Below are positions 4,363-64,000 of a stretch of 64,000 bases of DNA, in pieces. This DNA comes from Anaeramoeba flamelloides. Lineage: Eukaryota > Metamonada > Anaeramoebidae. The DNA lies in the NCBI GenBank assembly GCA_027625915.1, contig JANTQA010000036.1:7833001-7897000 (forward strand), read 5' to 3'. Below the pieces are notes generated by a model. The model did no database searches and was not told where the DNA came from. It saw nothing but the letters and a program-made list of their open reading frames with translations. Position numbers and translations under genes: made by a program. Numbering within the stretch: position 1 is the first letter of the stretch; every line of letters starts with the position of its first letter.

Positions 4363-7300
4363 TTATTGGCTAAGTTGGATAAAATACATTTCATCTTTAT
4401 TCATGCATGCTGCGGCTTCTTGTTCTCTAACAGAATCACTGCAATCAATAAGGTTTAAATTTAAATCATAGCAAAATGAAAATGAATGTAAAGCAGTCTT
4501 ATCTCCCCATTTAACACAATGGATAACAGGTTTTTTTAAAGTTTGAGAGATGATAGCGTCATCAAATCGATCATAAGTATACGATGTGGTGTTTGAAGGA
4601 ACAATCGCTGTATCAATCATCATTTTTTCAACATCCATAGCTGTTTTTAACACTAAACCAGCTTCAAAAAAGTTATATTCATTTTTGAAAATAGGTAACG
4701 CGCAGGTTCCATGTTTAGCCCATATTTGTGCCCAAAATGCTATTCAATAATTTTAATTAATAAATATTTTAAATTGTTTAAAAATTATTTGCATTATAAT
4801 TTAGCTATATATTTTTTTTAAAACTTAAAATTTTTATTTGTAAAAATTAAAAGTATATAATTCCTCATAACTATCGATAAGAAAGAGATTAGAACACTGA
4901 AAAGTTTAGGATAGTATTGTATCCACTGTGGAAATATTTTGGTAAATCATTAGGTTATTAGGCAAAGTTTGGAAAATTTTCGGATCTTCTTTTTTTGAAT
5001 TGAATTTGGGCAAAATAGGAAGCATATTACTAATAAATTTAGACTTTAAAAATGTTATTTAAAGTTATTTTAGAATAGTTTAAACAATTTTTTTGATACG
5101 TTGTTAATCTCATAAATCCCAAAAGATCGCACCCCGTTCAAGGATTTATGACATTGAAAATTTTATTTGGTTCAAGTAACCCAATTATTTGATCAATAGA
5201 CGACAAAGTTAAAAGTCCGACAATTTTCCCTTAAATGTTGCAAATTGAATGAATTCCCTTTCTTTGTTTAAAAATAATGCCGAAAACCAAACAGTGTTTT
5301 TGTTTTTGGTTTCATTGTAATAAATATCATTTTTAAAAAAATAAAAAATATTTGGTCTCTTTTTTTTCATCGGAAAAAGAGAAAAGATATCATTTAAAAG
5401 AAGATTTTCAAAATGAGAAAAAAACATAATTACAAATTTATTTTCCGAAAAAAATTAAAATAAAAAAACATTTTTTTTTTACAATGTCAAGTCAAGAATT
5501 TTTAGAGGAATGCTTCAAAATCAGTTACTGTTAAGTACACACAATAGATGTGGGATTTTATGTTTGATCGCATTCGGTTGTTTCTTAACAAGCATGAAAT
5601 CAAAGGTTAGAAGAAACTCATTGAAAAGTTGGACGATCTAGTTTGTCTATGTTGGATTTTAAACCAAGTTTTATCCTCAATGGATGAAAATGTAAAATTT
5701 AACTTCAGTATTTTCAATAATTTGATTGGGAGAAAAAGATCCTTTGAAGAAAAAGTTCTTCAAAGTACCATTGAAAAATAACCAATTGGTTTTTACTTGT
5801 TTAAATTTGTTTGTTTTTTTATTTTCTTGTTGTGTAGAGTTAGATCCTGAGTTTAAAAAATAAAAAATAAATAGCATCTTATATTGTTTCATTTGTTCAA
5901 AAATCACCAGTTATAATTCCTCGTTTTGGATCCCCTTCCAGTGACTCAAAATATGAGATTGTTCTGGTGCTAAGAGGATATTAATCGTCGTTCTTCGAAC
6001 TACACAATATCATCTTATATCACTTCGAATAATATCATATGTCCATTTCTTCCAGGCCAAACTCATAACATAACAAAGTGACTGCATCCAAATCAAAACA
6101 ATAAAGACAGTTATTATTTAATTTTGATATATTTTTAATATTATATTTTTTTTTGATTACAAAAAAATACAAATAAAAAACAATTTGAAAAAGTGGAAAA
6201 AAAAAAAAATCATTTATCAAATACAAATCTTAGTTTAATATAGAAAATGACGAAAAAAAAAATTTAATTTTGATATTAAATTTTAAAATCAAAATTTTCT
6301 TATAAATGTAAAATATTTGTATGTATTCTAATTTGATAAAGGTGTTTGATTATTTTATATTTAAATTAAATTAATGAAAACTCTTTTATTAATAGATTTT
6401 TCCTCTGTTGGTATTTGAATAATAAAGGGGAAAAAAAATTTTCACAGGATTTTTCAGTTTTTTCTTTTACAAATGATGAGTTTCAAAGAAATTGTAATTT
6501 CTGTTTGTGATCTCCATTTATTTGTTTAGTCTCTTTTTTATGCAATATATTGGATAAGACAAGAATCCGAAATGAAGAAAATTTTTCAAAACTGTAAGAA
6601 GATATACTGCTGAAATTTTATCCCTTTTATTATTCAAATACGGTAAGTTCCCAATTTAAGGGTAAAATTTTGATAAAACAATTTATTAAAGGAAAGATCT
6701 AAAAAAAAATAAAACTCTTATTTCATGAATGTAAAAACAAAAGTAATTCTCATAATAAATGTTTTCTTATTAATTGATAATTTATCTAAGGGATAATCAC
6801 AATAAATTAGATTTTAATTTTCGTCATTTTCTAAACTATTTTTCTGTCAAAGGGGCCCAGTTGTAATGGGTATAATACATGTGTTTAAAGGGTTTGCATA
6901 GATATTAGAAGAAAAATTTTATTTTGGAAATTTTCAAAATTGAAATCATTTTTTCACATTTTTACACATCTTTTTTTTTTTCGATTTTGTTTTAAAACGT
7001 CATTCAGTTGCAAAAAAATTTTTTATTGCAAGATCAATAGTCACTTGGTAAAAACGTGTTATTCTAAGGTCATTGAAACCATATAAAGATTGTTGAGAAA
7101 TCATATTGATTTCTATTGCAATTCTATTCGATCTTTGATCTTGATATTTGTTTAATAAATGTGAAAAATTTTCACTTCATTTTCATTTCCTTTTTCAAAT
7201 AGAGAACACAAATACCAACAAACTTCGTTTTGGTGCTTAATTTCTAAAAGAAAAGTATGGAAAATGAAGTGAAAAATGTTTCATATTTATTATTCAAATA

Positions 7301-28839: not shown

Positions 28840-31171
28840 CACATTAGAAATGAAATTTGTTATTTTTTTTTTCAAATTGAACCTATTTTTTCTATTTCTA
28901 TTTTATTTTTAAGATAAAATTTTTACTTAGTGGATAATATTTTTTTTAAAAAAATTTAAATCTTGCTATGATCTTGAAAAATTATTTTTTTATAATTTGT
29001 GTTTCGACTTATGAAATGAATGAGTTAACCCCATTTAAACAATTTATTAATTTGATTATTTTTTTTTGAAATTCAAAATTTACACGTTTTCAATATAATT
29101 AAAAATGATAACTATTATTTTTATGAAAAATAACTTAATACTGAAAATATGTACAAAATATTTTCATTTATAATTATTGTTGAATAGTCTTGATTTTTAA
29201 CGAAATTTTTTTATTTTGTTATTATTTTTAAGTTTTAATATTTCAATTTAAATTTCGGCAAATAAAACTAAATCAGGAATATAGGTGATTTAATAGATTA
29301 AAATTTGGTGGAAGCCATATTACCATTTATCAATAAATTTGAGATCTATAATGCAATTATTATTCTTTAAATTTTTTAAAAAAGTCAATTTTCTTTTTTT
29401 CAAAAAAACAAAAAAAAAAAAAAAATAAAGAATTTTTAATTTTGAAATTTTTTTCAAAAAACTGTTTGGCCTTATTCCTATAAATATATATAACAAATTA
29501 AATCATTTTTGTAAGAAAACAATTTATTTTGAAATCTGAGAATAAAAGTACCAAATTCCCAAATACTTATAAGAAAATTGTATTTTGAAAAATCAAATTT
29601 CATTTTAGAACAAAAAAATAATTTCAAAGTAAAATTTGTAAATGATTAACAAATTTAATTTTTATAAACACCCTTCTTAATAAAATAAAAATATTTTTCA
29701 ATTAGTTCACAAATTTTTTTTTTTTTTGGCTAAACAAATTATTTCAAAAAAAAAAAAAACAATCTAAAAATTAATATTTCTGGTAATAAAGATTTGGTAT
29801 TAATTAATAATGATGGTAATGATAATATACATGATAAAAAAGCGTTAGTATTGAAATAAATAATGTGAATTTAAAAGTTTTCTTTTTCCCATAAAAAAAA
29901 TGGATGAAAAAAAATGATCTCATTTCACTCTAAAACTTTCATTTTTTGGGTTTCTAAGTCTAGTAGAATTTTTTCTACTTTTAGACAAAATTTGTAAGTA
30001 AAGATATTACCACTAACATTTTTTAAAATATTGACCCTAGTTGTCAAGTGCAGGTTCATAAATTATTCTTTCAGTCTTGAAATAAGAGCTGTAAATATCT
30101 AAACATAGAGGAATTTTTAGAAACTACTTTGATTTTGGTCATATTTTTTTTAGAATAACCAACAATAAGGGAGAAATTGAGTGTTAGGAGTATCAAACCC
30201 AGACCTTTTTTTTTCTTCTTATTCTGATTCAAGATCTTGTTAATTAACTAAGGGTATACTACAGTAAAATTTATTCTGAAAGTAATCTCTTGATATTTTG
30301 AGAAATATTTCTTATTAAGAATTGAAATAGGATACATAATTTCTTAATTATCTATTTTTTTGGAATTTTTCTTAATTGTTTCAAAATTTTTGTATTCTTG
30401 AGGATGTTTTTCTCCAAATTTTTCCATAATTGTACCCATTTTTTGAAAAAAATTTTTACCATTAATCCTTCATTTTGAAGTATTTCTTTTTTAATATTAG
30501 AACTTTCAGAAACCAACACCATATTTTATGTAGTTTAGTTTCGAATTCTTTGATCATTTAATGTATAGTTCTTCTATAAAAAAGCAACACAGCTTTTTAT
30601 TTTGTTACATTCATTTTACCAATTCTTAACATTTTATTTCACCAACAGTTTTGACTTGAAACATGATTTGTACCAAGTAGGAACGGATTATATTAACATT
30701 ATGAGACACTGAAATGTTTTTTAAAATTGAATTTAACTTTATCAAGGCTAAACTTATAAACTTTTGATTGATTTAACCAAACACCCTTATCAAAAAAATT
30801 TCTTTTTGAATTTAATTAATAAAGTAAAATTTTAAGTTTCTGAATTGGATGCAATTTTTCTTTTACAATTGTTACGAGGGTATGAAAGCCACAAAATTAA
30901 AAATTGAATAATTTAGCAAATGACAGGTTTGCTGTTTCATTATTTAAAATCTTGATTTGTTCAGAATTAACATCGGTAGAAATTTGTTTTGATAAAACCT
31001 TGAGAATTTAAAAAAGGTAATGAACAAAGAGTACAGAATTCAGGGGGAAAATACCTCAAAGAACAAACCAACAAAACAAAATTCGGTTTTTTACTTGACT
31101 CGTTCATTTCTGGTGAATTTAAGAATTTGCCTCTTTTTTCATTTTTTTTTAATTCAAATTAAAAAGAGAAA

Positions 31172-34100
31172 ATGAGCTTTCGGAATTTTTCTTATTATTT
31201 TTTCTTTTTCTTATTTATTTCGCAGTTGCTCGCCAAGGATCCGTGTTCGATTTCTTTGAATTCTATTATTTCCTATTCACAATTAAATGAATGTTTTTCA
31301 AAGGTTGAAAATGCCCCTCTGAATCAGCAAAAAGTTGTCGATACGACATTAGGTGTCTTAGAGCAGTATGTCTTTAAGGACATTGTACAAAACTCTGGAA
31401 GCCCATATAACATCAAGGTCAATTTGGTTTCAGAATTAGAAAAAATTAGATCGTCCGATTATAACAAGGATTTTGATATGCACCAAGCAATCAATTCACT
31501 GCTTGCGGAGTTGTTAGATCCACACACAATGTATTTCAAGCCTTCGTGTTACTCTTCTTTTTGGATTCTTAATCCCTTTCAAATTACTGCGTTTCCAAGT
31601 CCTGTAGAAAACGAAGACCCACTCATCTATATTACCGGAACAAATTTTGATAACTCAACCGATTTTATTAATTTTTATCAGGGAATTACAGGTATCGACA
31701 TCAAACCCTTTGTGGGCAAACAAGTTGAAGCAATTAATGGTATCAATGCTTGGGACTACATCGTCACAGAGTCAAAAAAAGTCTGGGTTTCAAAAGACCT
31801 TTCCTCTCAGATCAACGAATATCTCGCATTAGATTGGAACCAGAGACATCTAGCTTTCGAGTCAGTACCCTCACACAAAAACATATATTTAACAATAGAA
31901 GAAGAACAGTTTCCCTTTGAGTATGTTGCGTTTTCAACAAACTCTTTTGATGACTCAGACAATTTTAAACAAATCTGTTTAAGTAAGTTTGCAACTTTTA
32001 ACTTTTCTTTTTTTTTTTTTTTTTTAATTTTTTTTTTTATGTTTGTTAAAACAAACAGTTTCTATCTGAAGAACTTTTTTGTTAAAAAAAGCATAAAAAA
32101 GAAATTCTTTGAGCAAAGTTGATAACCCTGCAATATTATTCTATTCCAATCTTAGAAGTTTAAATTACTGAAAAGTAAACAAAAATCGAGTGTTTTATAA
32201 GATTCATTTATAATTTCATATTTTGAATCTGTAATCTCAAAATTCAAAAAACGACGCAGCTGGGACAATGCCGAGAATTAAATGAAAAGCGAGAAACGAA
32301 AAAAAAAAGAGAAGTTTTCCAAAAATTGCTATATCTCTCAATTTCGCAATTAAATTTTGAATTTTTGACAAAATTATTGTCTCACTTTTTTGACGTGTAC
32401 CAATTTTTTTTCACAATAGCTATTATTGAGGAGAGGCAATTCAACAAAATTACCCCCTATTTACCGTTAGGTTTATTTCAAAAGTGGCTAGTCTCTATTA
32501 TTTTTTTTATGACCAATTTTTATATAAGGATTCCTTATCTAGAAATATATTTAATATTGAAAATAAACAGGGTTTGTCAAATCTCAGTAATTGGTAAAAA
32601 ATTTTCTCAATCTCTATTAAAATTAGGTAAAAAAATTTAAGAGAGATTAGTCCCTTAAATTAAAAAAAAAATCGTTGTTAGCTTTTCCAGAATTTAAAAG
32701 AATTGAGTAAAATCTTTGATTATTCTCAATTCTTTTAAATTCTGGAAAACTGTCGTTAACTTTTTTTTAATTTGAGAAATAAAAAGAAAATTTTTTAAAT
32801 TAAAAAAAAAGCTAGGCACTTGACAGCACTCTACGACATTTGACGGCACTCTACTACACTTTACGGCACTTTCTGAAACCCTGGATTTATTTTGAGTTTT
32901 TTATCCTAGTTATAATGTAGGCAAGATTATAGCTCAAAAAAATTAAAATTTTTTCAAATTGATCTCTTGTTTGATTCAAATTTCCATTTTCTGTTTTTTT
33001 AAAATTTTCAACATACCAAATCAGGTAAAACGAATTTATCTACTTTGACTTTAATTTTAAAAACTGAATCTGAAAGCAATCCAATTTCTTGACTTCTTTG
33101 TTGATCTCCTTTTCCTTTAATTTGTTAGAAAATTTGAAAAACAAAGGATGCTTTTGAAATCGAAATTGAACAAAAAAACTTCAAATTGTAACACTAACCT
33201 ATAGTTGGGAAAATTCCAAAAAAAAACAATCCCAAATCGCACTAACTTTGAAGATCGGAAAAAATTCATTTGAAATTTTGAACTATTGAATTCTCAAACT
33301 TTTGCCAACATTAGAAATTCATTTCGACAATTTAGAAACTTTTGAAAAGGGACACTGAAGATGAGAATAGTTGTGTTTGTGGAACTTGTTTAATAATTAT
33401 AAAAAAAACTTCAAATAGCTTTTTTAAAACTTTTTTGTGATATGTCCTTAATAAAATTAAGCACTATGTTTTTCTGATTAATATTTTTCGAAATCTAGCT
33501 TCAAACTTAATTCAATCAACCACTGTGATAAATTTTTTTAGAATAAAAACACTCTCAACTTTTGAATATCAAAATTATTTTATGAAATTACTGTACACTT
33601 TTTTATTTTTTTTTTGAAAAATTGGGGTTGAGAAAAGTTTGAAATCAAAGAATAAGTTAATATATTAAATTAGAATGCTTTTCCAGAGAGTTTATCCTTT
33701 TAGTTTAACTTTTTTTTAATTTTACCATTTAAAACTAAAAAAAACATTTGAGGACCAAATTAGTCCCTTTTGTGAAAAGAAAATTCCCCATAATTTAGAA
33801 TTTGTTTTAGTAAATAAGTTAAAACAAGATACTGAATCTAAAAATATACATAATTTCAAGTGTGAATTCAATGATTTTGGCAAAAAATGTTTTCAAGAAT
33901 AAGTTAAATTGAAACTTTATTTATTTTTATTTTTTCATTTAGTTTTTTTAATTGTATTAATGGAAAGTATTTGACCAGTTTTCCATTTTTAGTGTTTTTT
34001 GGTTCGTAGGGACATATTATAAGAATCAAAACTTTTTTAAAGTTTTTTTTTTAAAAAAGCATATTTCTTCCAACTCCAACCACTATATTACATTTAAAGG

Positions 34101-35088
34101 TTTAGTCTACATTTTTTTAAAAGTTTATTTTTTGAAAAGTTTTTATTCGAAAAAAGTTCACTCTTTTCTTTTCTAAAACAGAAAACTTGATAAAAGTTTT
34201 AAAAAAGACAATCTCAAAAAAAAAAAAAAAAAAAAGTACTAATCTTTCTAAAATAGAAAACCTTAAAAAAGTTTTAATTCTTACAATAAATATAAAAAAT
34301 TACTCACTTTTTTAAAATGGATGTACATAGAAGGACATCAATTTTTCTAACTCTATTTCAAGAGATTTTCCAATGTGAAAATGGTCAACTTTCGCAAAAA
34401 TATCAAATCAAACTGCAATTCCTAAAATAGTATTAACTGATTCACTTAAAAATAAAAATTCAAATAAAAAAAACTTCCTTTTTACCAGACTAGTTCCCTA
34501 GTAACAAAAAAAAATGATCTCGACATAAAAATCACATAAAAAGTAAATTTCACCTATGTTCATTATGAAATTCTCAAATTTGGAAAATTGAAGATACTTT
34601 AAATTTTGATTCCAATTTATTTATTGTATTCTATTTGAATTCTCAGAATCAAATTTAATTTTTTGACTTAAACTTTGTTTCAGTCAAAGGATCCCAGCAT
34701 ATTTTTCAAATATCAATTATTTTTTATAATTAACCTTTAAAGACAAATAAGAAATAAATAATAATATACATCAAAGAATAGTTTAAAAACGTATGAAATA
34801 AAACTAAGATAATCAATAGATTTTCTTAAAAAATAGAACAACCCAAAATTCTTCGGTCACCTATTAAGAAAAACAACAATGTTCATTTTGATCTTCAATT
34901 AAAGATCAAATAAAAACCCAATAGAAATCAATATGATTTCTCTAGAATCATTTTCACTGTTTTAGTAACATTAGAATAACACGTTTTTGCCTAGTGGTTA
35001 TAGTTCTTGCAATAAAAAAAACCTTAATTTTCAACAAAAAAATACCGAATTCAAAAATATCTTTTTACCAATCTTTTAACATAAATCT

Positions 35089-35134
<46 letters not shown>

Positions 35135-36723
35135 TCTCTAATTATATTATAAAAGATGGGGAAAAAACAGAAAAAATTTTAACAAAAAATATCAATTTTA
35201 AAGAATATTTACATAATAATCCAATTTTAAAAAAAAAGCAATTTAAAAAGAAATTAGATGAATATTTTCAAGGGTTAGAAGATCCAGAATTTGAAAAGAC
35301 AAATAAAAACAAGCAAATTATAAATGATGAAGAAAGTAATTTAAATGTTATTATTCCTAGGACACATGAAGTTGGATTAAGTATTTATCGAGACACAAAC
35401 CATCCTGGTTCTATCAAATATGGTATTTTAAAAATATATTCATTTAATCCAGAAATGATGTCCACATTTCGAGACACCATTGATAAATGTTTTGATTATC
35501 TTGCTAACCATGCTGTGAAATATTTAATTATTGATGTTCGAGACAATGGAGGAGGGTATATTGATTTAGGATATCAATTGTTTTATTATTTATTTGAAAA
35601 TCAAAAGGATAAATTCACCCCGATGATCTCAAATAATGATGTAATTCATTCAACATTACATGATGAATTTTTTACAAAATGCGCTCAGAATGAAATTTGT
35701 AAAGATGACGATACAATGCCATTCTCACCAAAAGGTTGGTATGATATTAATGATAAACAATTTACAAACATTGGTATTTATAAACCAGGTAAAGAGTATC
35801 ATCGAGGGGGCGGAGTTCCACGTACATTTTCTACTTTCTTACATGAAAAGGTTGATTTGTCTTGGCAAAATAAAAATCAATTATATTTTGATAAAGATCA
35901 TTTATTAATCCTAAGTGATGGTAGATGTGGCTCAACTTGTGCAATTTTCACTTCAAAAATATTCCAAAATGATTTGGCAAGAACAATTACAATCGGCGGT
36001 TCTTCGAAAAAAAATTCAAAGGCAAGTGCAATAAGTTTCCCAGGCGGGCAAGTTTTGGATGATTATTTTTTCCAAGTGGTTTATCTTTATTTTACTGACA
36101 ATTTGCAAGTTCCAATAGATAATATGTTTGACGAATATCCTTCTGATCAATCACTTTCGTTTACTTGGAGAGAACTTTATCCAATGGATAAAAATCCAGA
36201 GGGAAGTAACCCCATTCCCATGGAATTCCTTTTTTACCCTTCAGACATACGTATTTTAAATTGGGATTTTAATAACGATGAAAAAATCATTGCAGAAACT
36301 GTGCCATACTTTCAAATGGGTGGACCCACGCCCACGCCCACGCCCACACCCACAGTAAAACCCAACCCAACACCAAGCAACGATACTTCTGATATTACAA
36401 ATAAGATCAAATTATTAACAAATGGAATGTCTGCTTTAATCGTTCTTTTGGTAATTTCAGTCGTAATAATATTAATTCTATATGTTTATTATAGAAAATT
36501 GAAAAAACAACAAGATGGCGATCATTTTTTAGAAGGCGAGAGTGAAGAATTTGAATTTGAGACAGATAAAAATTCCGATATTGAAAACGCAAATGGAGAT
36601 AAGAATGATGTCAATAATGAAAATGATGACGAGAATGATAATGAAGAGGTAAAAGAAAAAGAAAAAGAAAAAGAAATTAAAGATAAAGAACAAAATAATG
36701 GAAATGAAAAATTAATTAATTAA
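31172..36723 (+). CDS. Membrane-anchored S41-family (tail-specific/CPAF-like) protease, two exons
   Basis: Exon 1 is 31172-31982 and exon 2 35156-36723, 792 residues in all. The intron (31983-35155) has donor GTAAGT and acceptor TATAAAAG; A+AT gives Asn271. A signal peptide (MSFRNFSYYFFFFLFISQLL) is followed by an N-terminal domain with LLDPHTMYF (His118), resembling the DPHSxYF of tail-specific proteases. Exon 2 carries the crotonase-fold core: KYLIIDVRDNGGGYIDLG, then ILSDGRCGSTCA, where Ser530 in Gly-Ser-Thr is the expected nucleophile. After the catalytic region come a Pro-Thr repeat stalk (PTPTPTPTP), one membrane helix (~692-716, SALIVLLVISVVIILILYV) and a ~75-residue acidic Asp/Glu/Asn/Lys tail. 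It is thus predicted as a type I protein with the protease outside or luminal. Substrate unknown; the general-base residue was not pinned down. Confidence 0.85.
32660..32885. repeat. Family F repeat, copy 1, with stem-loop
   Basis: Contains a ~26-bp-arm hairpin (about 32690-32745; TTTTCCAGAATTTAAAAGAA and its reverse complement), then AATTTGAGAAATAAAAAG, then the family tag CTAGGCACTTGACAGCACTC. The tag and hairpin parts recur at 37365, 44515, 47060 and 59795. Confidence 0.6.
34671..35030. mobile_element. Family I element, partial, inverted, no nested insertion
   Basis: The left end ACTTTGTTTCAGTCAAAGGA follows TA. The interior is the reverse complement of the right half of the 6834-7531 copy (e.g. 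AATAACACGTTTTTGCC against GTAAAAACGTGTTATT). The other terminus is missing, so the copy is truncated. It lacks the family E insertion. Confidence 0.65.
35090..35134. repeat. (CT)n(TA)n microsatellite by splice acceptor
   Basis: About 11 CT units run into about 11 TA units, ending ~20 bp before the exon 2 acceptor AG at 35154-35155. A CTAAT branch-like motif lies between. Confidence 0.85.
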
Positions 36724-41012: not shown

Positions 41013-44000
41013 ATGAAATTTAACATTCATTTTTTCATAGTTTTTCAAATGTCTATGTTTGGTTTTTGTTTCGAATGTGCTTTTGTTTTCTTTCTACTTC
41101 TTTCGTTTGCTCTTTCAAACGTCTATTTTCAAGAAACCTTTGATCAGGATTGGAAGGAAAGATGGACGATCCCAAACGAAGATCTTGGGGAATGGCAGTA
41201 TACCACAGGACCATATTATGGAAGCCCCGAATTAAATCATGGTATTCAAACAACAAGCGACAAAAAACATTATTTAATAAGCTCAAAATTTCAAAAGCCT
41301 CTTAAAACAACTCTTAACAAAACCCTAGTTATACAATATTCATATCGAAATGTTCAAAAGTTAAAATGTGGAGGAACTTATTTTAAATTATTTGATACAA
41401 ATTTTAGTCCAGAGAATTTTTCTGCAGAGGATCAATACTTGTAAGTAATTTTGTCAAATTCTTTACAGCAATTAATATTTCTGTTTCTACATTTTTCAGA
41501 ACAAATCTGGTGATGAAGTCAAACCAAAAAAGAAAAATATTTCCTCAAAAGAAATTTATGAAAATCTTGTGTTATTTCTTAAAGTTATAGTCCCGAAAAA
41601 AAATACAGGACACGAAAACAATCCCGTACAAGATTTTTAATTGTGACTATTAGGAAAATTGTTGTATAATTGCAAATATTTTAAATCAAATCTTTTTTTA
41701 AATAACCAAATATTTTATGAACTCAGTAATAAACCCACCTAAAGTCCATCAAAGTGGGGTACTCTATAATACTCAAATAATTGTTTGATATCCTAAGTAG
41801 ATCTACTTTTTTTGATAAACCTTATAGACTTTTATAGAGGTTTACTATGAGTATGGAAAATGATAATTTTTTTTATCGTTTCCTAATTGAACAAATGGTG
41901 TTTTTAACAAGTGTAATTTCATTAATCATCATTCTAATAACTGGCTGTGTTATAATTTGAAAAGTTTGATTCTTAAAAAAAAAGGATTTGATTTTAAATA
42001 AAAGGAATTACATAACAATTTTCCTAATATTCACAATTAAAAATCTTGTCAGGGATTTTTTTAATGTACGGGTATTTTTTTCACTACTATAGATCAAATT
42101 TTTTGGTAATTAAAAATTAATTGTTCAGTTAGTAGGAGCTAGATCGAAACAAAATTAATCTAAAAAAAATGCTATAGATAAATTTTAATTTCTGTTTGGA
42201 AATTTTTTACTTGATTTTCCTTTTTGAAATTATTATGTTCAAGCTTTGAATAAAGTATTTTATGAAGTCAAGTGATAAGAAACTCTCTAAAATTAGTTGT
42301 TCTTGTAAATATTTTTTGGTGTGGACTGTTAGATAAGTAACAGTTCAAAGATTATGGAAAAAGAAAAGAGTGAATTTTTTCAAATAATTTGATTTTTGAA
42401 AATATCTATACCAGAAAAAAATTACAGCACTTTAAAAAAGCGCTATTTGTTGCAAAATAAATGAAACAAAATTGTCATTCTACTTTCCAAAAAATAGGTT
42501 TTAAAAAGCTGAAAAATTTCAATTTTTTAATTCTCATAAATCTGTTTAAAATATTGCTTTTCTCTTATAGGACTGGGGTCCTTTGATGGTTTATTTTAAT
42601 TCATGGAATGTGATTATTTTGGAAAGCTTATTGAATATTTTGATCTTTTTATTTTATAATTAAAAGTATTGATTAGTTGTTTTAAAGAGAGAAATAGACA
42701 GTTTAGGTAACACCATATAAAACTTTGTTCCTTACTTTTGAAAACGGTAGTTCTAAAAATTTTCAAGTTTGGTTTCTATCATTATTTTAGTAATTTAACA
42801 CACAACAGAAATAATTCAATCATAACCTTTACGCTGATAATACCTTTGATTCGTATGTGACCAGAATTTGAAAAAAAAATATCAAATTACTCTTTAAGGG
42901 CTATTCATATTATATGCTCTGTTGGGATTGAAATACAAGAACTTGACAGAAAATATGATTTATAGTATTGAAAAAAATCCCTGAGATGAAAATAATGCCT
43001 GGCACGATTTGGAATTGTAGATATTAGGGAAATTGTTGTGTAATTGTGAATAATTTCTTTTATTTAAAAATCAAACTTTGAAAAATATAACTCGCTACTC
43101 ATTAGAATGGTGATTACTCAAATTATACTTGTTTAAAAAAATATTCAATCAATCAAAAAACCAAGAATAAAAATTATCATTTTCCAAATTCATAGCAAAC
43201 CTCTCTATAAAACTATAAGGTTTATCAAAAAAAGTAGATCTACTTTAAGCTACCAAACAATTGAATGAGTATTCTATAGACAGCCCCACTTTAATGAGCT
43301 TTAGGTGGGTTTATTACTAGAGTTCCTAAAAAAAAAATGGTTACTTATAAAAAGGATTTGATTTGAAATAAAAGAAATTATTAAGCAATTACCCTAATAT
43401 TCATAATTAAAAAACTTTTCTGGGATTATTTTCATGTCTGGATATTTTTTTTCAATACTATAAAAGAAATACAATTAAGGGTCAGTAAACAAAAAAAAAT
43501 CTTCAAGTAAATTTAATAGCAAATTCAAAAAAAAAAATTACCACATCTTTAAATTGAAAAACCAAAGTAAAAATCTGATTACTACAAGGGCCAAAATAAT
43601 TTTCATTGCTATTTCCAAAAATGAATTATTGTTTTTAAAAAATTTTATCCATTTTTTCAAATTTTTGAAAAGTTCAAAATTCAACCTTTTGTAATTATTT
43701 CAAAAAAAATATTTCGTTAGAAGAAAGAAATTTTATTATCTTTGACGGAAATGTACAAAAATATATCTTTAAAAATGAAACCGCCAAGTTCTAAAATAAC
43801 TCAATATAAAAAATCTACTTAATTTCAAAAAAAATTTCAATAATTATTTTAAACTTGAAAAAAATATAATTTTTTTGATTCAAGAACAGTTCGAATCAAT
43901 TTTTTCTTTTTATTTAACAAAAAAAAAAATTCGTGAAAAAGAACCAAACAAATCATTAAATTAAGAATTCACCATAAATACTTTTTTAAAACCTAGAAAA

Positions 44001-46105
44001 TTCAACTTATAACCTAAAGAAATACTTTTTAATTTGATTATTTTTAATTATTAAGTAATAACCCAATTTTAATTCTTTTGGTGAGTTATTAAATACACAA
44101 AGATTAAGCATATTGATAGATTTTATTATTATTTCTCAATTTTTTAAAATTTTTTCAAACAAATTAAAATCAATTCCAATTAATAATTCTAATAAAAAAA
44201 AAAAAAAAAAAATAGATATTCTCAAATAACCGATTTTAATAATAACACTTCGTTGTTTATACTTTAATATTTGGAAAAGAATATTACCTAATCTTTTAAA
44301 TGTCAAGAAATTAAATTAATATTTGTGAAAATAAAATAAAAGATCAATTTTTTCTGGATCTTCAGGGATTTAATTCTTGATTTATTTTATTTTAGTTTTA
44401 AAAAAAGATTTAATTCAAGGAGTTTTTTTGGTAATTAAATTTTTGGAAAAAAAAAGAAAAAAAATCCCGATTAACTTTTCAAAGTTTTTAATTATTTTGA
44501 AAAAAATTTGAAATAAAAATTTAGGAATTCGGGAAAAGCCGTGGAGTGTGGTCAAGTGCCTGTTTTTTTTTTTTTTTTAATTTCTAAGAGTAAAAATAAC
44601 CTAACGGTGGTTTTCTTGAGGTTTTCTGTTTTATTTGTAAAATCTATCGGTTTTAGGAATAAACAGAAAACTCAAGAAAACCTAACAAAAAAACAATAAG
44701 AAATAAAAACCCCTCCCTTAAACAATAAAAAAAAAAGGTTTTTAATTTTTTTACGAATAATAAATAATTTGTAAAGATATTTCTAAATTTTGAATTTTTA
44801 AAAATTCTAACGTAATATCACTTCTGTGTCTATAATGACCGATTATTGGCAAGTAACAAAATATAATAAAATAAATTTTAATATTTTATAAATATAAATA
44901 ATAATTAATATAGAATAATGTTTGGTCCAGATGAATGTGGTGTTAATGGAACCCCTCTTCATATAATTTTAAATTATCGTGGCAACTATTATAAGTGGCG
45001 AAAAAATGCAAATTTTAAAATTGGAGAGCGTACAAAAATTTATACACTAGTTTTCAATCCTAATAATACATACCAAGTTTATATTGATATGGAAATGATA
45101 GATTCAGGGGAAATTTTTCATGATTTTGGTGTCTATACAACAAAAACAATTTCTAAAATTTTTTCAAATGAAAGGGACTCCGAAATATATTTTACAGAAA
45201 ACACCGAACATGAAAATAACAGCGAAAGTGAAAGTGAAAGTGAAACCGAAACCGAAAGTGAAACCGAAAGTGAAGGTAATAGCAAGGAGGAAATTGAAAT
45301 ATTATTTGAAGAAGCTGAACAAATTGATAATCCAAAATATGTTTCACCAAACGAATTGCATGTTTTTGAAAATTTAGATTATCTTGGAATTGATATATTC
45401 CAGGTAGAATCTGGTACAATTTTTGATAGTTTCTTAATTTGTGATAATTTCACTTATGCAATGGAATTTGCAAACCTAGTCTGGAAAAATCAAAAAAAAA
45501 ACGAAGAAAAAAGATGGTTTATACATCACCAGGAACAGCAAAAATTATTACAACAGCAAACTTATCAAATACATCTTGACCAATATACGAGAGATGTTGA
45601 AAGATTAGAGCAAAATTATGAATCGATGTTTAAACTGGCAGATCAAATCTTTCAAGATCGAAAAATAGTTGATGAAAAAAAACAACAATTGCAACAATTA
45701 GAAGATAAAAGTAAAATAATTCAAAAAAGGAAAAAGAAAGATAAAGAAATGTTAGATCAAGAAATTTCTTTATTAAACAACCAACTTTTAGATCTAAATA
45801 ACACTCTAGAAATAAAATGTCGGGAAATTTATCTTAAGGCAAGAAAATATTTAGGAACGGATTTTAGAATAGTAAAAGATGGAACAAAACGTATAAAAAT
45901 TAAAGAATTATATGAACGGGTAGATTCTTTAAAAATTTCAAAAAAAAAATTAGATAAAATTTATCAACAAATAAAGGATATTTATGAAGGTGGAATGGAA
46001 TGGAGAAATAAAAAATATTTTGAAAGGCAAAAGGAAAAAAAACAAAAGGAAAAAAAACAAATGAAAAATAAAGAATTTCAAATAAATTCTAAAAAAGAAT
46101 TATAA
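41013..46105 (+). CDS. Calreticulin-family protein without a recognisable P-domain, two exons
   Basis: Exon 1 is 41013-41440 and exon 2 44914-46105, ~539 residues. The intron (41441-44913) has donor GTAAGT and acceptor AATATAG; TT+A gives Leu143 and restores the motif DQYL-IMFGPDECG (calreticulins: SEYNIMFGPDICG). Signal peptide near residues 13-35; ATG 41049 could be the true start. The lectin domain shows VYFQETFDQDW, GIQTTSDKKHY, CGGTYFKLF, IYTLVFNPNNTYQVYID and GIDIFQVESGTIFDSFLIC. Both cysteines of the family disulfide and the Tyr/Lys of the sugar site are kept. The tandem PEDWD / GEWKP P-domain repeats are absent; about 245-265 is a Ser-Glu/Thr-Glu repeat followed by one QIDNPKY remnant. 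Residues ~345-530 are a long charged, probably coiled-coil tail ending KKEL, a plausible KDEL-like ER-retention signal. No TM follows, so calreticulin rather than calnexin. The usual ERp57-binding arm would be missing. Confidence 0.9.
41588..42089. mobile_element. Family B TIR element, copy 2 (in intron)
   Basis: TA precedes TAGTCCCGAAAAAAAATACA and follows GGTATTTTTTTCACTACTA. About 502 bp. The inverted inner block AAGATTTTTAATTGTGA / CACAATTAAAAATCTTGTCA is well kept. Confidence 0.8.
42963..43460. mobile_element. Family B TIR element, copy 3 (in intron)
   Basis: TA precedes TAGTATTGAAAAAAATCCCT and follows ATTTTTTTTCAATACTA. About 498 bp, the same length as copy 1. Lies 870 bp from copy 2 in the same intron. 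Confidence 0.85.
44515..44695. repeat. Family F repeat, copy 3
   Basis: Has GCCGTGGAGTGTGGTCAAGT and inverted GAGGTTTTCTGTTT / AACAGAAAACTCAAGAAAAC blocks, as in the 37365 copies. Confidence 0.6.
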
Positions 46106-48435: not shown

Positions 48436-50215
48436 TTAGTTCAAAATGACTTTAAAAATTCTATAATTTTCCGATTCCCAAATTTTTGGGAATTTAAAAC
48501 GCTCAATAATGGAATTATGTATTTTAGATTTACTATCCATGATATAAGTTATCTTAAATTCGGCAAATAACTCCTTCAAATGATTTTGATGTTGTCCATA
48601 TTTAATTCCCTTATCTAAATAATTAGTTACGGACTTTCTTTCGCGTGTAGGTTGTATTCCGTGACTCCAAAGCCAGCCTTCATAGCCGATGAAGAGTTGT
48701 CTGCCTGCAAGGGTTGTTACTGGGTTTCTATGGAAATTTGTATCTGGCACTGCAAAAGTAGCATTTTTTTCAGTATTTTTTGAGACAAATTCACCCATTT
48801 GAATTAACTCTTGATCAAATATTTCACTTACGCCTGCTGACACCGTGATTATTGAAAGTAAAACAGGCAAAATTATGATTATACATAAGATTATTACCAG
48901 TAGTGTTGTTAAATAATACAAAATTCCCTCAAATTCTTTGTCCAATAAGAAGACTACAAATCTAGCCGTGGCTAGTGCAAAGATGAAATAGGGAGCATTT
49001 ATTAATTTTATATTATCAAATTTCCAAGGCTGAAGCATGATCAATATTGAAAAAATGAATAATAATACAAATGGGATCAAAAATTTGGTTTTATATCCAG
49101 TGTTGCATATTAAAGGCAAAGAAAAGATTCCAATTAAAAAAATTGGACCAAAGCTAAGGATAATATATGAGATTGGATTTGTCCATTCATTTTTCCAAAT
49201 TGGTTCAAATCTGATAAAATTGTCTTCAGAGACTCTCGAGAAAAATAGGTATAATTGCGGGAATGCAATAAGGTTTGAAAGAATTGCATAAAGGCAAATT
49301 GTTAAAAAATATTTTTTTTTGATTGCAAATTTATATTTTTTCGAAAATGGGAAATTCAGGATCAGGGCGATAGCTGTGATAAAGGCAATGATTAAATAAG
49401 AGTGTGTGTGGGCAAATGGAAGTAATCCTGTTAAGACGGATGCTAAAATTGAGATTTTCAATGTGTATCGAAATTTAATTCTGGCCCAATTTTGCGAAAT
49501 TAAATGATAAATTAAAATTAAAATAGCAACGGTAAGACAATACCCTAATAGCGCGCTACGCTGTGGAAGTATTGTTGCGTCAATAAATGGGAACCAAAAG
49601 AGTTCTCTGTTTTTTCCAATTGCTAAACTATAATCGAATTCAAATAAATGCGAGATTCCAATTCCTTGTTTGCCAAGTGGATTAAAAATTAGTCCTTTAA
49701 GCAAATAAACCCAACCAAAGCCCCCCCCTGAGATGATAAAAAAAATGGCTATCACAGAAGCCATTTGATTCCTGACTATCCTTTGGAAAAAAAAATACAA
49801 TAAAGTGAGTAAACAATAAAATTCTATTACAGCTGTAACAACTAAAGTTATTTGAAGTGTGCATTGGCACCCGCCATTGATAAGCGCAGTGTGGAAATCG
49901 GTAATAAATGGGTATATTAAAGCCGTGCCGCTATAGATTGGGAACTTGAGTGCCTTCAGAGAGCCCCATTCTGAATTGATTCCCTTTGTGAACGACTTTA
50001 TAATGTTTAAATGAAATGGCAAATCACCATAACAGTTTTTGGCTGTGTAATAGCTTTTTGTTTTCCAGTTGTAAGGCAAAAAGTGAAGGATCGTTAAAAT
50101 TAGAAAAAAAAAGTTTAAAATCGTTGCGATCAGAAAAAACATTTTGTGTGTTCGAATTTCTTTAATTAATAATTTCAGAATAATTTGTTGTAATTTCAAG
50201 AGGGTAGTACTATCG

Positions 50216-50265
<50 letters not shown>

Positions 50266-50712
50266 CTTATTGCTATTGTTGTTGTTGTTCTTATTGCTGT
50301 TATTGTTGTTGTTATTGATTTGCTGTTTTTTTTTTTGGTTTTTCGTTTCCTTTTCATTTTTTTTGTTGTGTTCTGGATTTTTTGAATTTTCTTTTTCATT
50401 ACTTTCTTCCTTCTCTTTTTCTTTTTTCTTGTAAGAGTGGTTTTGTGGTCGGCAATATTTTTTACAATTTAAAATTTGAAAATAAGACAGACTTAGTTGT
50501 AGAATAATGATTAAATAGCATAATTTTTCAGAGATCCATAGTTGGAAAATTGATCCTAAAAAATAGCCAATCCATGACGATATAACCACACCCAATGGGA
50601 ATGAAATACTTAAGCACTCACACAAAGTTAATGGTCTTCTATAAAAATAGCGTAAAAGAAAGACAAAAGGTAGTGCTGTTGAAGAAAAGATAAATAAAAC
50701 AAAACAAAGCAT
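48436..50712 (-). CDS. GT-C-like multi-pass membrane transferase
   Basis: Start ATG at 50710-50712; an in-frame stop lies just upstream, so no earlier ATG is possible. 758 residues, intronless. Two or three N-terminal membrane segments (to ~80), then a basic/acidic and poly-Asn cytosolic-type stretch (~90-168), then about ten further hydrophobic segments. After one of these (~192-212) comes YYTAKNCYGDLPFHLNIIKS, with an Asp and a His placed like the first luminal loop of GT-C glycosyltransferases. Other marked phrases are IYPFITDFHTALINGG, LPFAHTHSYLI, and a soluble-looking C-terminal part with TTLAGRQLFIGYEGWLWSHG. GT-C enzymes use lipid-linked sugars in the ER; that role is inferred. An uncharacterised protein of the same topology is the alternative. 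The Asn run is coded almost wholly by AAC. Confidence 0.65.
50215..50316. repeat. GTT/AAC trinucleotide repeat coding poly-Asn
   Basis: Sixteen or more uninterrupted GTT units followed by interrupted ones. On the coding (minus) strand they give AAC Asn codons with a few AAT, AGC and AAG. A/T-rich neighbours mostly use AAT, so slippage expansion, not codon choice, explains it. Confidence 0.85.
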
Positions 50713-50790
50713 TCCGATTTGTAACAATTAGGTAAGAAGAAAAAAGAGGAGAAAATGACTTATTTTTTATTTTTAAGGATTACCATAAAT

Positions 50791-54818: not shown

Positions 54819-55378
54819 TAATAAAAAGAAACAACTTCAATTGGTCATTTTTTTCTAATTTGAGTTAATAGAGTTTTTTTAATCAAGTTCGTCAGATTCT
54901 TCACAATTATCCAAAAAATAATGTTAAATTTTTTTTTACCCACTTATTATCAAAAAAATTTAAAGACTGTTTGTCAAAGTTGTTTGAGTGAAAATTTTTA
55001 CAAATGATAGAACTGAAACAATAATTACTAAAGCAGCCAAAAAAAGTCTTTTTCAAAACTAATTTTCATTGAGATGTGTTTCAAAGATAGAAATGCAAAA
55101 ATATGAAAAAAAGAAAATGATAAAATCAGATTAAAAGTATCCACATTTTGACAATTGCTGTAAAACCAGTAAAATCAAATATTCTATAACCTTATTCTGT
55201 TCAAATTCATCTTTGTATTCATTTTTTCTTATTTTTCTACCTCAAGTCAATTTTTTTCAAATAAAAAAGAGTTTCAAACAACTTAACAGTCTTTCGGATT
55301 CTTAAAAAACCAAACTACCAAAAATAAAAAAACAAAAAAGAACCCTTTTCAAAATAAAAAAAAAAAAAAGAAAAAAAC

Positions 55379-56443
55379 ATGCTTCAAATTTTCAACAAGC
55401 AAAGAAAATTATCACTTTCTTTATTAAGCCTCAACATGAGAAGCTTTGCAAAGCCATTAATTTTAAGGAACCAGTACAGTCCCTTTGAGCATATTGAAAA
55501 GGACAAAAGAGCAACTGGCTTTCATGAAAGGGTTGACTCAAAGCACTACCCGGTTAAGAAAATTCTTGCAAAAAAAAAAGAAATCTTCAAAAGGGGATCC
55601 CTTTTTCAAGAAGTAGGGCCGATTGGCAATATTATGATCATCTTGAATTACAAAATCCCAAAATTTCTACCTGCTTTATTTCACGACTCACATTTAGTCA
55701 TTTGTGCAGACGGGGGTGCAAATCGGCTCTATGACGCTGTGCCCGAGCACAATAGGGTTCACTACACACCAGATGTAATTTTAGGCGATCTGGACTCGAT
55801 CCGGCCAGAGGTCCGTTATTTCTATGAAAACCAAGGATCGACAATTCAGCATTTCAAAGACCAGTCCACAAACGATCTACTTAAGTGTATGCGGTGGGTT
55901 GACAATTGGCTTAAGAGTACATACGGCTGTGCGTTGGTCCTTGGTGAAATCGAAAAGGAGATGAAAAGAAAATTGGCTGTCAATAAGGACGACTATGTCA
56001 AAACCAATTTTTTCAACCTGTCAAAGGGGATCGATTACGGGATGTGCAGCTTTAACATGTTTGTTATGGGCGCGATGGGCGGAAGGATCGATCACGAATT
56101 TGCCAATTTCCATGCCGCCTTATGCTTCCAACAGCACAGAATCTTTCTCTTCAGTGACGGCAACTATACCCGTTGGCTACACCCCGGTAGACACCTGATC
56201 CACATCAACAAGCAAACGGAGGGGCCCGTGTGTGGGCTAATACCCCTCGCCTCAGTGTGCAGAAGCTGCTCCACTAAGGGGTTAAAATGGAATGTTGAAA
56301 ATGAGTGTTTGGAATTTGGCAAATTGATCAGTACTTCCAATGAAGTAGCTGACAACCACGTCTTTATCGAAAATTCAGACCCATTAATTTGGACAATACA
56401 ATTAAAAAAATTTTGGGAAAAAGAGCATTCAATTAAAAAATAG
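55379..56443 (+). CDS. TPK1: Thiamine pyrophosphokinase
   Basis: 354 residues, intronless, clearly richer in G/C than its flanks. It transfers pyrophosphate from ATP to thiamine to make TPP (EC 2.7.6.2). Family motifs appear in order: VICADGGANRLYD (107-119), DVILGDLDSI (132-141), KDQSTNDLLKCM (160-171), GAMGGRIDHEFANFHAAL (231-248), FLFSDGNYTRW (256-266), then the thiamine-binding C-terminus with STKGLKWNVEN (298-308), FGKLISTSNEV (313-323) and DPLIWTIQL (334-342). The C-terminus matches the animal/yeast type closely. The protein is ~110 residues longer than human TPK1 (243). There is an 80-residue N-terminal extension, whose first ~35 residues lack acidic side chains and are Arg/Lys/Ser/Leu-rich, and a ~35-residue charged insertion (about 188-222). 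The N-terminus could be an organelle-targeting peptide, but ATGs at residues 20 and later are alternatives. Confidence 0.95.
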   Translation: MLQIFNKQRKLSLSLLSLNMRSFAKPLILRNQYSPFEHIEKDKRATGFHERVDSKHYPVKKILAKKKEIFKRGSLFQEVGPIGNIMIILNYKIPKFLPALFHDSHLVICADGGANRLYDAVPEHNRVHYTPDVILGDLDSIRPEVRYFYENQGSTIQHFKDQSTNDLLKCMRWVDNWLKSTYGCALVLGEIEKEMKRKLAVNKDDYVKTNFFNLSKGIDYGMCSFNMFVMGAMGGRIDHEFANFHAALCFQQHRIFLFSDGNYTRWLHPGRHLIHINKQTEGPVCGLIPLASVCRSCSTKGLKWNVENECLEFGKLISTSNEVADNHVFIENSDPLIWTIQLKKFWEKEHSIKK

Positions 56444-61192: not shown

Positions 61193-62110
61193 TTATTTCG
61201 GTTTTCTACACAAATCGCAAAGGCAATCAAAACCCCAAATTAATCGGATTAATTGCTTTCTCATATTAGTGTCGTCTTGGTAAATGCCACCCAAATAATC
61301 AAAGCACAAATGATCGCCTTTCATAATTTTTTTTGTTGATTTAAATTGGATACTGTCACCGATGCCATTTGATGATTGGATTTTCAGGTTTGGTTGGCAA
61401 GAGTGGTTAATAAAAGAAGAAGCCAAAAATAAAGAGTATCTTCTCCCAACAAAGATGGTATTTACTATTGCTTTCCCAAAGCAGGAAAGCCAGAAACGAT
61501 CAGCTGTTTTCTTTATGTTTGGCTGGTGTGGTTCGAAGAGTTCGTTCCTTTCCAAAAACGCGGCTGGATCGAGCATTCCCTTTGTTTGCTGCGCTGCTTC
61601 GCACAGGAGCTCTAAATCCTTCGCCCAGTTTTTTGGGACCGTGTTCCCAAGATTTTGTGATTGCAGCGAGTCCACATAATGTAAATACTTTACACGATCA
61701 TGTTCGATCATCATTCGGCCAAATAGTTGCCCACTTAGCATAAACTGGTACCATAAATTCGGTGAGTTAAAATATGGCTGTGTTGATCTTTCAATCGCCC
61801 TTTCAACATAAGTCTTCATTGGGCTTGTTGATAAAAAGTTCTCCAGAAACGTTTTACTTTGCTTATTTGAGCTCGTGTAATACTCCTTGATCGCAGGAGT
61901 AATTTTTGATTTGGTTTCCTTTGCATTTTGGGGTTTTAATTCTGGTGTTTGAAGAAAGGGCTTTTCTTCAAAGAGGACTTGCCCTTTTTCAAAATTTTTG
62001 GTCGAAAGCGCTCCCCTAATTGTTAAATTGCCTAACTGTAACTTTTTAACCTGGAACGGTACCGTTTTTGAAAGAACAAAATCCAAGCATGGCTGAAGAA
62101 TTTGGTTCAT
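61193..62110 (-). CDS. SET-domain protein (SMYD-like core, no MYND finger)
   Basis: 305 residues, intronless, ATG at 62108-62110 with an in-frame stop a few codons upstream. The SET core is split in the usual way: N-terminal IRGALSTKNFEKGQVLFEEK (31-50), a ~175-residue helical insert, then SSFINHSCQPN (231-241), the pseudoknot motif that binds S-adenosylmethionine, and GDHLCFDYLG (265-274) with the conserved Tyr. A post-SET-like cysteine cluster, WGFDCLCDLC (292-301), ends the protein; the expected zinc is bound together with the NHSC Cys. The arrangement resembles SMYD and SET5-type lysine methyltransferases, but the MYND finger (normally inserted near residue 50) is absent. The target, histone or other, cannot be told. 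Confidence 0.88.
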   Translation of the reverse strand: MNQILQPCLDFVLSKTVPFQVKKLQLGNLTIRGALSTKNFEKGQVLFEEKPFLQTPELKPQNAKETKSKITPAIKEYYTSSNKQSKTFLENFLSTSPMKTYVERAIERSTQPYFNSPNLWYQFMLSGQLFGRMMIEHDRVKYLHYVDSLQSQNLGNTVPKNWAKDLELLCEAAQQTKGMLDPAAFLERNELFEPHQPNIKKTADRFWLSCFGKAIVNTIFVGRRYSLFLASSFINHSCQPNLKIQSSNGIGDSIQFKSTKKIMKGDHLCFDYLGGIYQDDTNMRKQLIRLIWGFDCLCDLCRKPK

Positions 62111-64000
62111 GGAGATCGATTAAGAAAAAACAATCCAATTCCAAAAAATGATTTGGGTTGCAAAACCAAAATGAGTCTGGAAAAACTTATTTCGAAAATA
62201 CTCTTAAAGGAAGTTTTTGAAATTATTCAGAGAATAATTTGATAATTTGGGAAAAAAATATTTCAACCCTTAGAAGTTTCTTCTTCTGCTTTGGAACCAA
62301 TTTTCAAATGACGGTTTGGAATTACTCGTTTATTTTCTTCGTTTATTCCCACAATCACATACGTTTTTACAATTGTGTGTAATACTGGTATTTGAATTAT
62401 AATTGGGAACAATTTTTCCTTTGATTTTCAATTTCCTTTTTCTTTTAGATACACAAATTACAACCTACTTCATTGATGACTCTTTTTGAAAAAACATAAA
62501 TCAGGAAAAGGAAGTAATAATTTTACTCATTTAGAATTCAAATACGAGAAAAAAGAAAATTCAAAAAAGTTCTGATAAGAGAAAAGATTTGAGAACAAAA
62601 AAAAGAGTTCCAAGAGTATATTTTTAATAAATGGGTGTTCTTAATTATCGAGAAATCTAATAAATTTGTGTGAAACGAAGGCTATTATTTTGATAAAAGA
62701 GTACAAATCAAAAATATTACTGTCTTTTTCTGATTATAGAAATCCAAGTTTCTCTTTCAAGTTCCCAAAATCATTGGGGTAATTGTTTGTTGACAAAGCC
62801 CAAGTTATTGTAAAAAATTAATGAGAGATGACTACCACATCTAATGCGATTTTTCTTACTGTCACTATCGAAATGTAAAAAATTAATTTGAATCTCAAAG
62901 TTTCAACAATAAAGGTTTTAAATTAAAAAAATCAAGGCTATCTTGAGAAATGATCTTATGAAAATCTTGGTTTTTTTTGGAATTATTCCACTCATTGGGG
63001 AAATATTCGATAGTCTGAAATAAAAATTTTAATATCTTGATGGGAAAATGACAGTCAGATAATTTTCCAATTAAAGAACGAAAATTTTTAGTTCACATTC
63101 CAAAATATTTTTCTAATCTTTTAAAAATGATATTTTTAGACAATAAATGTAACTTAATTTATATTAACTCTAAGACACAATTTTTACTCTACTATTTTTG
63201 GTTGTTACAGAAATTATGAATATACATTTCAGAAATTGAAATAAAAAATTCATTTATTAATTGGAAAATAACAATAAAACAGAACTGTACAAATGATCCA
63301 TTTGTAAAAAATCTTGTAACTGTTCTTTTATGAAAACAATTCTAATCGGAGAATATTTGAATGACGAACTAATTTTAATGGTTTCTTAACACTTTAACCA
63401 ATTAGACAGTTTATTCAAAGCTAAATACAAAAATTTCCAAAAAGAAAAAATTTAAACATACTTATCACCTTTTACAACGTATGGCCTTATATTACAACCT
63501 ATTTCTTTGAAAATTCTAATCTAAATAAAAATTAGAAAAAAATCGGTAAAAATTATTCTCTTTTATTCTGCAAACACCAGTATTAGCTATTATTTTAATT
63601 GCCAATCAACTCTACTTTTGGGAAATAATATTAACAAGATTTTGAGGGAATAAGATTCCAATTGTCAAAAACCTAAACAATTTTCAGAAAAAAATCAAGC
63701 AACCCACATTTGATTTTACACTTTTTGAAAAAAAAAAGTCTTCTTAAATTTGTAGAATCACATGAGAAAAGTTTTAAATGTTATTACCAAGTGCTTTTCA
63801 AAAAAAAAGTTTACCTTTTCCCAAATATCTTCGAGTATAAAAGTGTTAAAAATTGTCATACCAAAACAAGTATGATTTAATAATAGTATAACAATAGGGA
63901 ATACCAGTTGGCTTCTCTGTACTACATTTGATTGGTGCTATCTTTCATTTTTTCAATCTTTTCGTTTTAATCAATTGAATCCTGATTTTTAAATGAAAAA
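62111..64000. other. Upstream of SET gene to window edge
   Basis: Holds one family E element (62376-62551). The rest is A/T-rich and I see no gene. No coding frame runs off the right edge convincingly on either strand. Confidence 0.55.
62376..62551. mobile_element. Family E TIR element, copy 4
   Basis: Left ACTGGTATTTGAATTATAA and right TTTAGAATTCAAATACGAG are inverted ends. The inner TTTTCAATTTCCTTTT / GGAAAAGGAAG blocks match copy 2. Confidence 0.6.

Follow-up and report, generated by a model that had tools for sequence, protein, structure and literature searches.

The forward-strand gene at 41013..46105 of a 64-kb window (the whole stretch of Anaeramoeba flamelloides DNA analysed here, 24.1% GC) encodes a protein which has the lectin domain of calreticulin and groups with calreticulins in our tree, but lacks the P-domain, the arm recruiting folding enzymes, in which sequence identity among lectin chaperones is highest (PMC7687155). 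We refer to it as armless CRT (armless calreticulin). As far as sequence comparison can tell, it is best described as a calreticulin-branch derivative that has no P-domain; we do not class it with the conventional calreticulins, since two of their features, P-domain and acidic tail, were looked for and are missing. Common to it and calreticulin are the lectin sequence, the tree branch, the disulfide pair, most glycan-site residues, Asp328, a hydrophobic N-terminus and an end of the KxEL type, whereas the three type I and three type II P-domain repeats and their Met-Asp-Gly tip are absent, and a basic tail of 203 residues stands against the acidic calcium-buffering tail of calreticulin. Among the 15 family loci of the genome (254 Mb, 76 contigs searched) it seems to be the only one on the calreticulin branch. 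A natural protein of this branch, which has no arm but mostly keeps its glycan site, would provide a natural test of the lectin domain alone, and the same genome holds a mirror case, calnexin-side proteins resembling calreticulins.

A limited search of the open-access literature returned no natural armless calreticulin. Closest are the P-domain-truncated calreticulins of human, mouse, T. cruzi and E. histolytica made in the laboratory, in which the lectin domain is kept and the arm is mostly or wholly replaced by a linker (PMC5094443, PMC10040973, PMC6359024); the truncated calreticulin of PMC6359024 is likewise a laboratory fragment. These constructs differ in being man-made, in their short linker and in having no coiled-coil tail, and their crystals indicate that the lectin domain still folds when the P-domain is truncated (PMC5094443).

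Lectin domain and position in the family tree

The calreticulin family profile (Pfam PF00262) scores above its cut-off, and phmmer aligns both lectin halves with mouse calreticulin (3rg0) at 171.9 bits, versus 78.7 bits for dog calnexin (1jhn). An earlier reading made from the DNA letters alone (hereafter the sequence-only reading) had called the lectin domain well kept, including disulfide pair and sugar-site residues, and this proved correct: nine of the 12 glycan-site positions are identical to human calreticulin (Cys105, Tyr109, Lys111, Tyr128, Met131, Asp135, Cys137, Ile147 and Asp317), that is, the equivalents of the Cys105/Cys137 pair and seven of the ten remaining sugar-site positions. 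Two of the 12, Asp135 and Trp319, we take to belong to the glycan site. The roles of the other sugar-site residues follow PMC5094443 and PMC7687155. Asp328, the side-chain ligand of the high-affinity calcium site predicted from sequence, is retained as well, and the backbone-binding calcium positions 26, 62 and 64 are occupied by Thr, Leu and His. Position 317 is of no use for separating the two families: armless CRT shares Asp with human and T. cruzi calreticulin, whereas the other two reference calreticulins (8xvf and Arabidopsis) have Glu there, as do the two calnexins and 13 of the 14 paralogs of the same genome.

A tree was built from the lectin part only, with 21 rows comprising armless CRT, its 14 own paralogs, four calreticulins (human, 8xvf, T. 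cruzi 5hcf, Arabidopsis) and two calnexins. Armless CRT and the four reference calreticulins are joined at 100/99, with the two calnexins and all 14 paralogs on the other side of this branch. Forcing armless CRT together with the paralogs costs 35 log units (approximately unbiased (AU) test, p 4.8e-6), and the constraint is also rejected when the three long rows C18, C13 and C1 are left out (p 0.0019). Either exon alone falls into the calreticulin branch, exon 1 (without C13) at 99/96 with p 0.0049 for the own-paralog constraint and exon 2 at 100/98 with p 0.0003, which further supports the joining of the two exons. An 18-row tree (three own rows missing, one untrimmed) recovers the calreticulin group at 99/98. 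Pairwise lectin identities agree with this position, being 37-38% to each of the four calreticulins and 26-27% to each of the two calnexins. Calnexin moreover has a membrane segment after the lectin domain; armless CRT shows no stretch above the hydropathy threshold there, whereas five of the 14 paralogs do. The insertion NPxTEEWEE, which occurs in nine of the 14 paralogs and in similar form in dog calnexin, is absent from armless CRT.

For the paralogs themselves, calnexin descent is weaker than the placement of armless CRT, because the identities of their soluble members are less sharp and whole-length matches are mixed. The six soluble members share 33-35% of lectin residues with dog and 40-42% with Arabidopsis calnexin, versus 27-30% with human and 32-34% with T. 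cruzi calreticulin; with whole human calreticulin as query, P-domain included, they outscore armless CRT, and in a whole-length structure search one of them (L009) reached 239 bits with human calreticulin and 233 bits with dog calnexin. Their placing on the calnexin side rests on the lectin columns, and calnexin descent has a support of 92/90 for the 12 outside C18 and C13. The own set might also form a third old branch instead of descending from calnexins.

Gene structure, P-domain slot and basic tail

The two-exon model (ATG at 41013, stop codon ending at 46105, 539 residues; Table 1) holds up well. The intron begins with GTAAGT and ends with ATATAG; the codon it splits encodes Leu, two residues ahead of MFGPD, and the alignment with human calreticulin around the joint is free of gaps (...AEDQYL-IMFGPDECG against ...SEYNIMFGPDICG). 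In the tail stretch 45490-46105, only the terminal stop lies in the frame of the gene, whereas the other five frames contain 6 to 20 stops. Codon-usage scores are highest in this frame for all five coding parts; among the 25 other frame scores a single one is slightly positive (0.14, the following frame within the Ser-Glu part). One 1.2 kb intron piece scores negative in all six frames. Stop counts and codon usage together thus argue that the frame is not due to chance. Residues ~ 1-35 resemble a hydrophobic signal peptide, as judged by eye.

Five patterns covering the type I and type II repeats and the tip of the P-domain gave no match in the six frames of the whole window, intron included, whereas the same scan found at least one pattern at five of seven paralog loci (L009, L013, L018, L019 and L020, the last with a single core pattern only; none in L021 and L022). 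The type I core is present in 11 of the 14 paralog proteins, the exceptions being C1, C18 and C13. The sequence-only reading, which had reported the repeats and the ERp57-type partner arm as gone and a Ser-Glu/Thr-Glu stretch in their place, is thereby borne out: the slot is filled by an acidic spacer containing this tract, and the tip residues Met257-Asp258-Gly259, instrumental for the binding of ERp57, cyclophilin B and ERp29 (PMC7687155), are absent, so that the ordinary ERp57-type partner would not be usable. Its wording that the P-domain had been 'exchanged' is, however, too strong; the Ser-Glu stretch does occupy the slot, but nothing indicates the source of either spacer or coil, and many stretches elsewhere in the genome look like this tract. 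A P-domain exon hidden in the intron, which the earlier reading had named as the finding that would overturn it, is rejected, both by the zero motifs and by position. The intron precedes MFGPD and hence lies upstream of the P-domain slot, so an exon in 41441-44913 would sit in the wrong place; the slot (~45128-45325) falls within exon 2, which is open throughout and retains the DNPKY junction after the spacer. The intron does contain a repeat with inverted arms, of which a second stretch with related arms is probably a further copy; at ~500 bases each, the two are possibly a small mobile element.

The charged C-terminal helix ending in KKEL, put at ~185 residues in the sequence-only reading, comprises 203 residues by our cut. 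Its net charge is +17; the tails of the six KKEL-ending soluble paralogs range from -19 to -31, that of C1 has 0, and the 51 residues compared from the human calreticulin tail come to -25. Hydrophobic residues are spaced in a heptad-like manner, the observed mean being reached by none of 1000 shuffles. AlphaFold, given exon 2 alone as a single sequence, predicted a helix of 137 residues (179-315 of the model, 320-456 of the protein), which begins within the lectin part and has a block-wise predicted local distance difference test score (pLDDT) of 70-87 over its middle, then an interruption that holds a single short helix, and finally another long helix (345-397, protein 486-538). No known domain scored above cut-off in the tail, DUF5713 being best (E 0.046, 14.5 bits versus 27.3 required), and its matches among solved structures, two designed helical proteins (E 0.22 and 0.82), were put down to composition. 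The end KKEL is shared with six of the 14 paralogs, and in none of these six is the lectin domain followed by a membrane-like stretch.

Table 1. Parts of the armless CRT gene and of its intron, with positions in the window, followed by the family members elsewhere in the genome
Feature	Position	Strand	Remarks
Exon 1	41013..41440	+	hydrophobic signal-peptide-like N-terminus and first part of lectin domain; PF00262 positions 1-117
Intron	41441..44913	+	GT-AG, phase 2, 3473 bases, 22.4% GC
Intron repeat with inverted arms	41586..42091	.	114-nt arms, 81% complementary
Second intron stretch with related inverted arms	42971..43451	.	probably a further copy of the repeat above
Exon 2, remaining N-terminal lectin half	44914..45127	+	residues 143-214; MFGPD and Cys137 equivalent
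Acidic spacer in P-domain slot	45128..45325	+	residues 215-280 (66), net charge -17
Ser-Glu/Thr-Glu tract within spacer	45221-45274	+	residues 246-263
C-terminal lectin part	45326..45493	+	residues 281-336; DNPKY junction; Asp317 and Asp328 equivalents
Basic helical tail	45494..46102	+	203 residues, net +17, pI 9.65
C-terminal KKEL	46091..46102	+	last four residues identical in six soluble paralogs
C64, C46, C32, C33a, C24, C9			KKEL end, P-domain cores, no membrane-like stretch; C9 with fewer repeats
C33b, C48, C61, C17			P-domain cores and membrane-like stretch
C29			P-domain cores; neither KKEL nor membrane-like stretch
C1 (L020)	G000:C1:2010000-2015500		HNEL end; degenerate P-domain recognisable by eye only
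C18 (L021)	G000:C18:266000-272000		no P-domain motifs; membrane-like segment, strongly acidic tail
C13 (L022)	G000:C13:10151500-10157500		broken near-copy of L021; no P-domain; stops before and after open part

Proposed working and competing explanations

How such a protein might work can be outlined from its parts; the hydrophobic secretory-type N-terminus, the lectin site, KKEL and the missing partner tip are read from the sequence, and the remainder of the outline is inferred. We give an even chance to armless CRT being a single-copy, intron-bearing calreticulin ortholog, which lost P-domain and acidic tail and serves as a glycan holder, retained in the endoplasmic reticulum (ER), possibly oligomeric, and unable to recruit folding enzymes by way of the known tip. 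KKEL, a predicted ER retrieval tetrapeptide, would keep it in the ER. It differs from the ends of the BiP-like proteins; of the 20 HSP70 loci read, HDEL closes six that have a BiP-like end or start with a hydrophobic N-terminus (L052, L053, L054, L069, L070 and L071, the last two being the same gene), and YREL closes one (L061). With five HDEL genes and one YREL gene among the BiP-like ones, the genome uses ER-type tails of more than one kind. A UGGT-type glycosyltransferase catalytic domain was found at four places of the genome, three of them scoring 429-450 bits, and armless CRT would bind monoglucosylated glycoproteins of a UGGT cycle. The basic coiled coil may form a dimer or higher oligomer or dock on an acidic partner, for which the six soluble paralogs with their acidic tails are one plausible guess. 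According to PMC7687155, glycans are bound roughly tenfold more strongly than partners, and suppression of aggregation maps to the lectin domain. With the tip required for partners and the lectin domain suppressing aggregation, an armless form would hold or cluster client glycoproteins, while delivering no PDI or prolyl isomerase in that way. The ordinary delivery job may be left to the calnexin-side proteins, six of which have apparently turned soluble and calreticulin-like.

Several observations weigh against this outline and should be kept in mind. Three sugar-site positions are changed (G124A, N154Y and W319F). Gly124 and Asn154 are named as glucose contacts in PMC5094443, and P-domain truncation lowers the suppression of aggregation according to PMC7687155. 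The UGGT-type search, which covered the catalytic domain only, also matched two of 14 control genomes, both of them bacteria. Regarding an oligomer, the best single heptad stretch of the tail is reached by 6.8% of shuffles, and the AlphaFold model of exon 2 has a mean pLDDT of 52 with the lectin part unfolded, for which the half-domain input and the single sequence may be the cause. In the tree, the branch of armless CRT is ~1.0 long and the program warns of long branches meeting, for which reason no branching order is claimed inside the groups; the references were only four calreticulins and two calnexins.

The sequence-only reading had suggested a lectin chaperone with another partner or with a structural role, and either may apply. 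The loss of both partner arm and calcium-buffer tail, the size and basic charge of the coil (203 of 539 residues) and the three sugar-site changes would suit a structural or tethering protein without chaperone function, perhaps outside folding altogether, in which the lectin domain anchors to glycoproteins and the coil attaches to membrane or to filament-type or acidic proteins. Against this stand the retained residues Lys111, Tyr109, Asp317 and Met131, the intact disulfide pair and KKEL, which points to the ER lumen, and we regard this as unlikely. Decay offers another explanation: the only calreticulin of the genome, made redundant by the soluble calnexin-side proteins, would be drifting after losing its parts. 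The long branch, the repeats in the intron and the low-complexity insert could be taken in that sense, as could L022, a copy of another armless member with stops before and after its open part, but 539 open codons, intact splice signals, coding-type codon use through the tail, the retention of most glycan residues and KKEL at the exact end render a relic quite improbable. A distinctly speculative variant, to which we attach slightly less belief still, is a swap of roles, in which the ancestral calreticulin, reduced to a lectin on a basic coiled-coil stalk, attaches to soluble calnexin-side proteins through their acidic tails, the functions being split over a two-protein complex and the calreticulin design having re-evolved from calnexin; if true, one lectin would cluster glycoproteins while the other brings the foldase through its P-domain.

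Two further explanations concern the identity of the protein and are far less probable. That armless CRT is simply another calnexin-side paralog, which lost its arm, might be suggested by the large family of 15 loci, including the armless membrane-type L021, and by the long branch, which would help a sequence of unplaced position; the AU rejection in four data sets and the missing NPxTEEWEE insertion speak against it, and we consider it very improbable. Hardly credible is a P-domain that is present but was missed through an assembly error or misread exons. The gene model does come from one assembly and from sequence alone, but the slot lies within one continuous open reading frame (ORF), and no motif is seen on either strand of the 64 kb, whereas most of the scanned paralog loci match.

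Further family members and neighbouring reading frames

The PF00262 profile finds 15 family loci including armless CRT, and human calreticulin as query (16 of 16 candidates scored) likewise yields 15, the other 14 being all in the tree. With the protein of exon 2 as query (82 of 82 candidates scored), armless CRT was followed by 11 of the 14 paralogs at no more than 39.3 bits and by six weak other matches. Searching the genome with exon-2 DNA, where 40 of 123 candidates were scored, gave 84 matches and no near-copy of the gene: the gene itself scored 2150 bits and the rest were short, at most 84 bits, the majority falling on the Ser-Glu tract and others on query positions 761-836 and 1091-1187. 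Among viral contigs, 97 pattern matches to relatives were seen, of which none was confirmed.

A second, conventional calreticulin or calnexin in the genome had been suggested as a check by the sequence-only reading. Proteins of conventional architecture do exist among the paralogs, but they lie on the calnexin side, so a second conventional calreticulin is not among them. The six soluble members (L009, L010, L011, L012, L014 and L017) are calreticulin-like with acidic Ser-Glu tails; they resemble armless CRT in the KKEL end and in having Ser-Glu tracts, theirs in the acidic tail, and differ in the kept P-domain repeats, the acidity of the tail and their calnexin-side position. L021 is similar to armless CRT in having no P-domain motif and a short charged segment in the slot, but lies outside the calreticulin group and has a membrane-like segment, an acidic tail and Ile147 changed to Arg; if the tree is right, the arm was thus lost more than once in this genome. 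L020 represents the reverse case; its lectin domain has lost key residues, with Ser for Tyr109, Asn for Lys111, Gly for Met131 and Ser for Ile147. Expansion of the family itself has precedent in the calnexin expansions of Trichomonas and diatoms, as reported in PMC7016017.

Elsewhere in the window, 31163-36723 holds two ORFs that are possibly one split gene: the first has a hydrophobic start and lacks a Pfam match, and the next is S41 peptidase-like and includes a membrane-like segment. On the reverse strand, a 763-residue ORF (48436-50727) contains a long run of Asn besides numerous hydrophobic stretches, and matches a vacuolar protease membrane domain below cut-off only. Further ORFs encode an RNase T2 (4363-4743, reverse strand), a thiamin pyrophosphokinase (55358-56443, forward strand) and a SET-domain protein (61193-62119, reverse strand).

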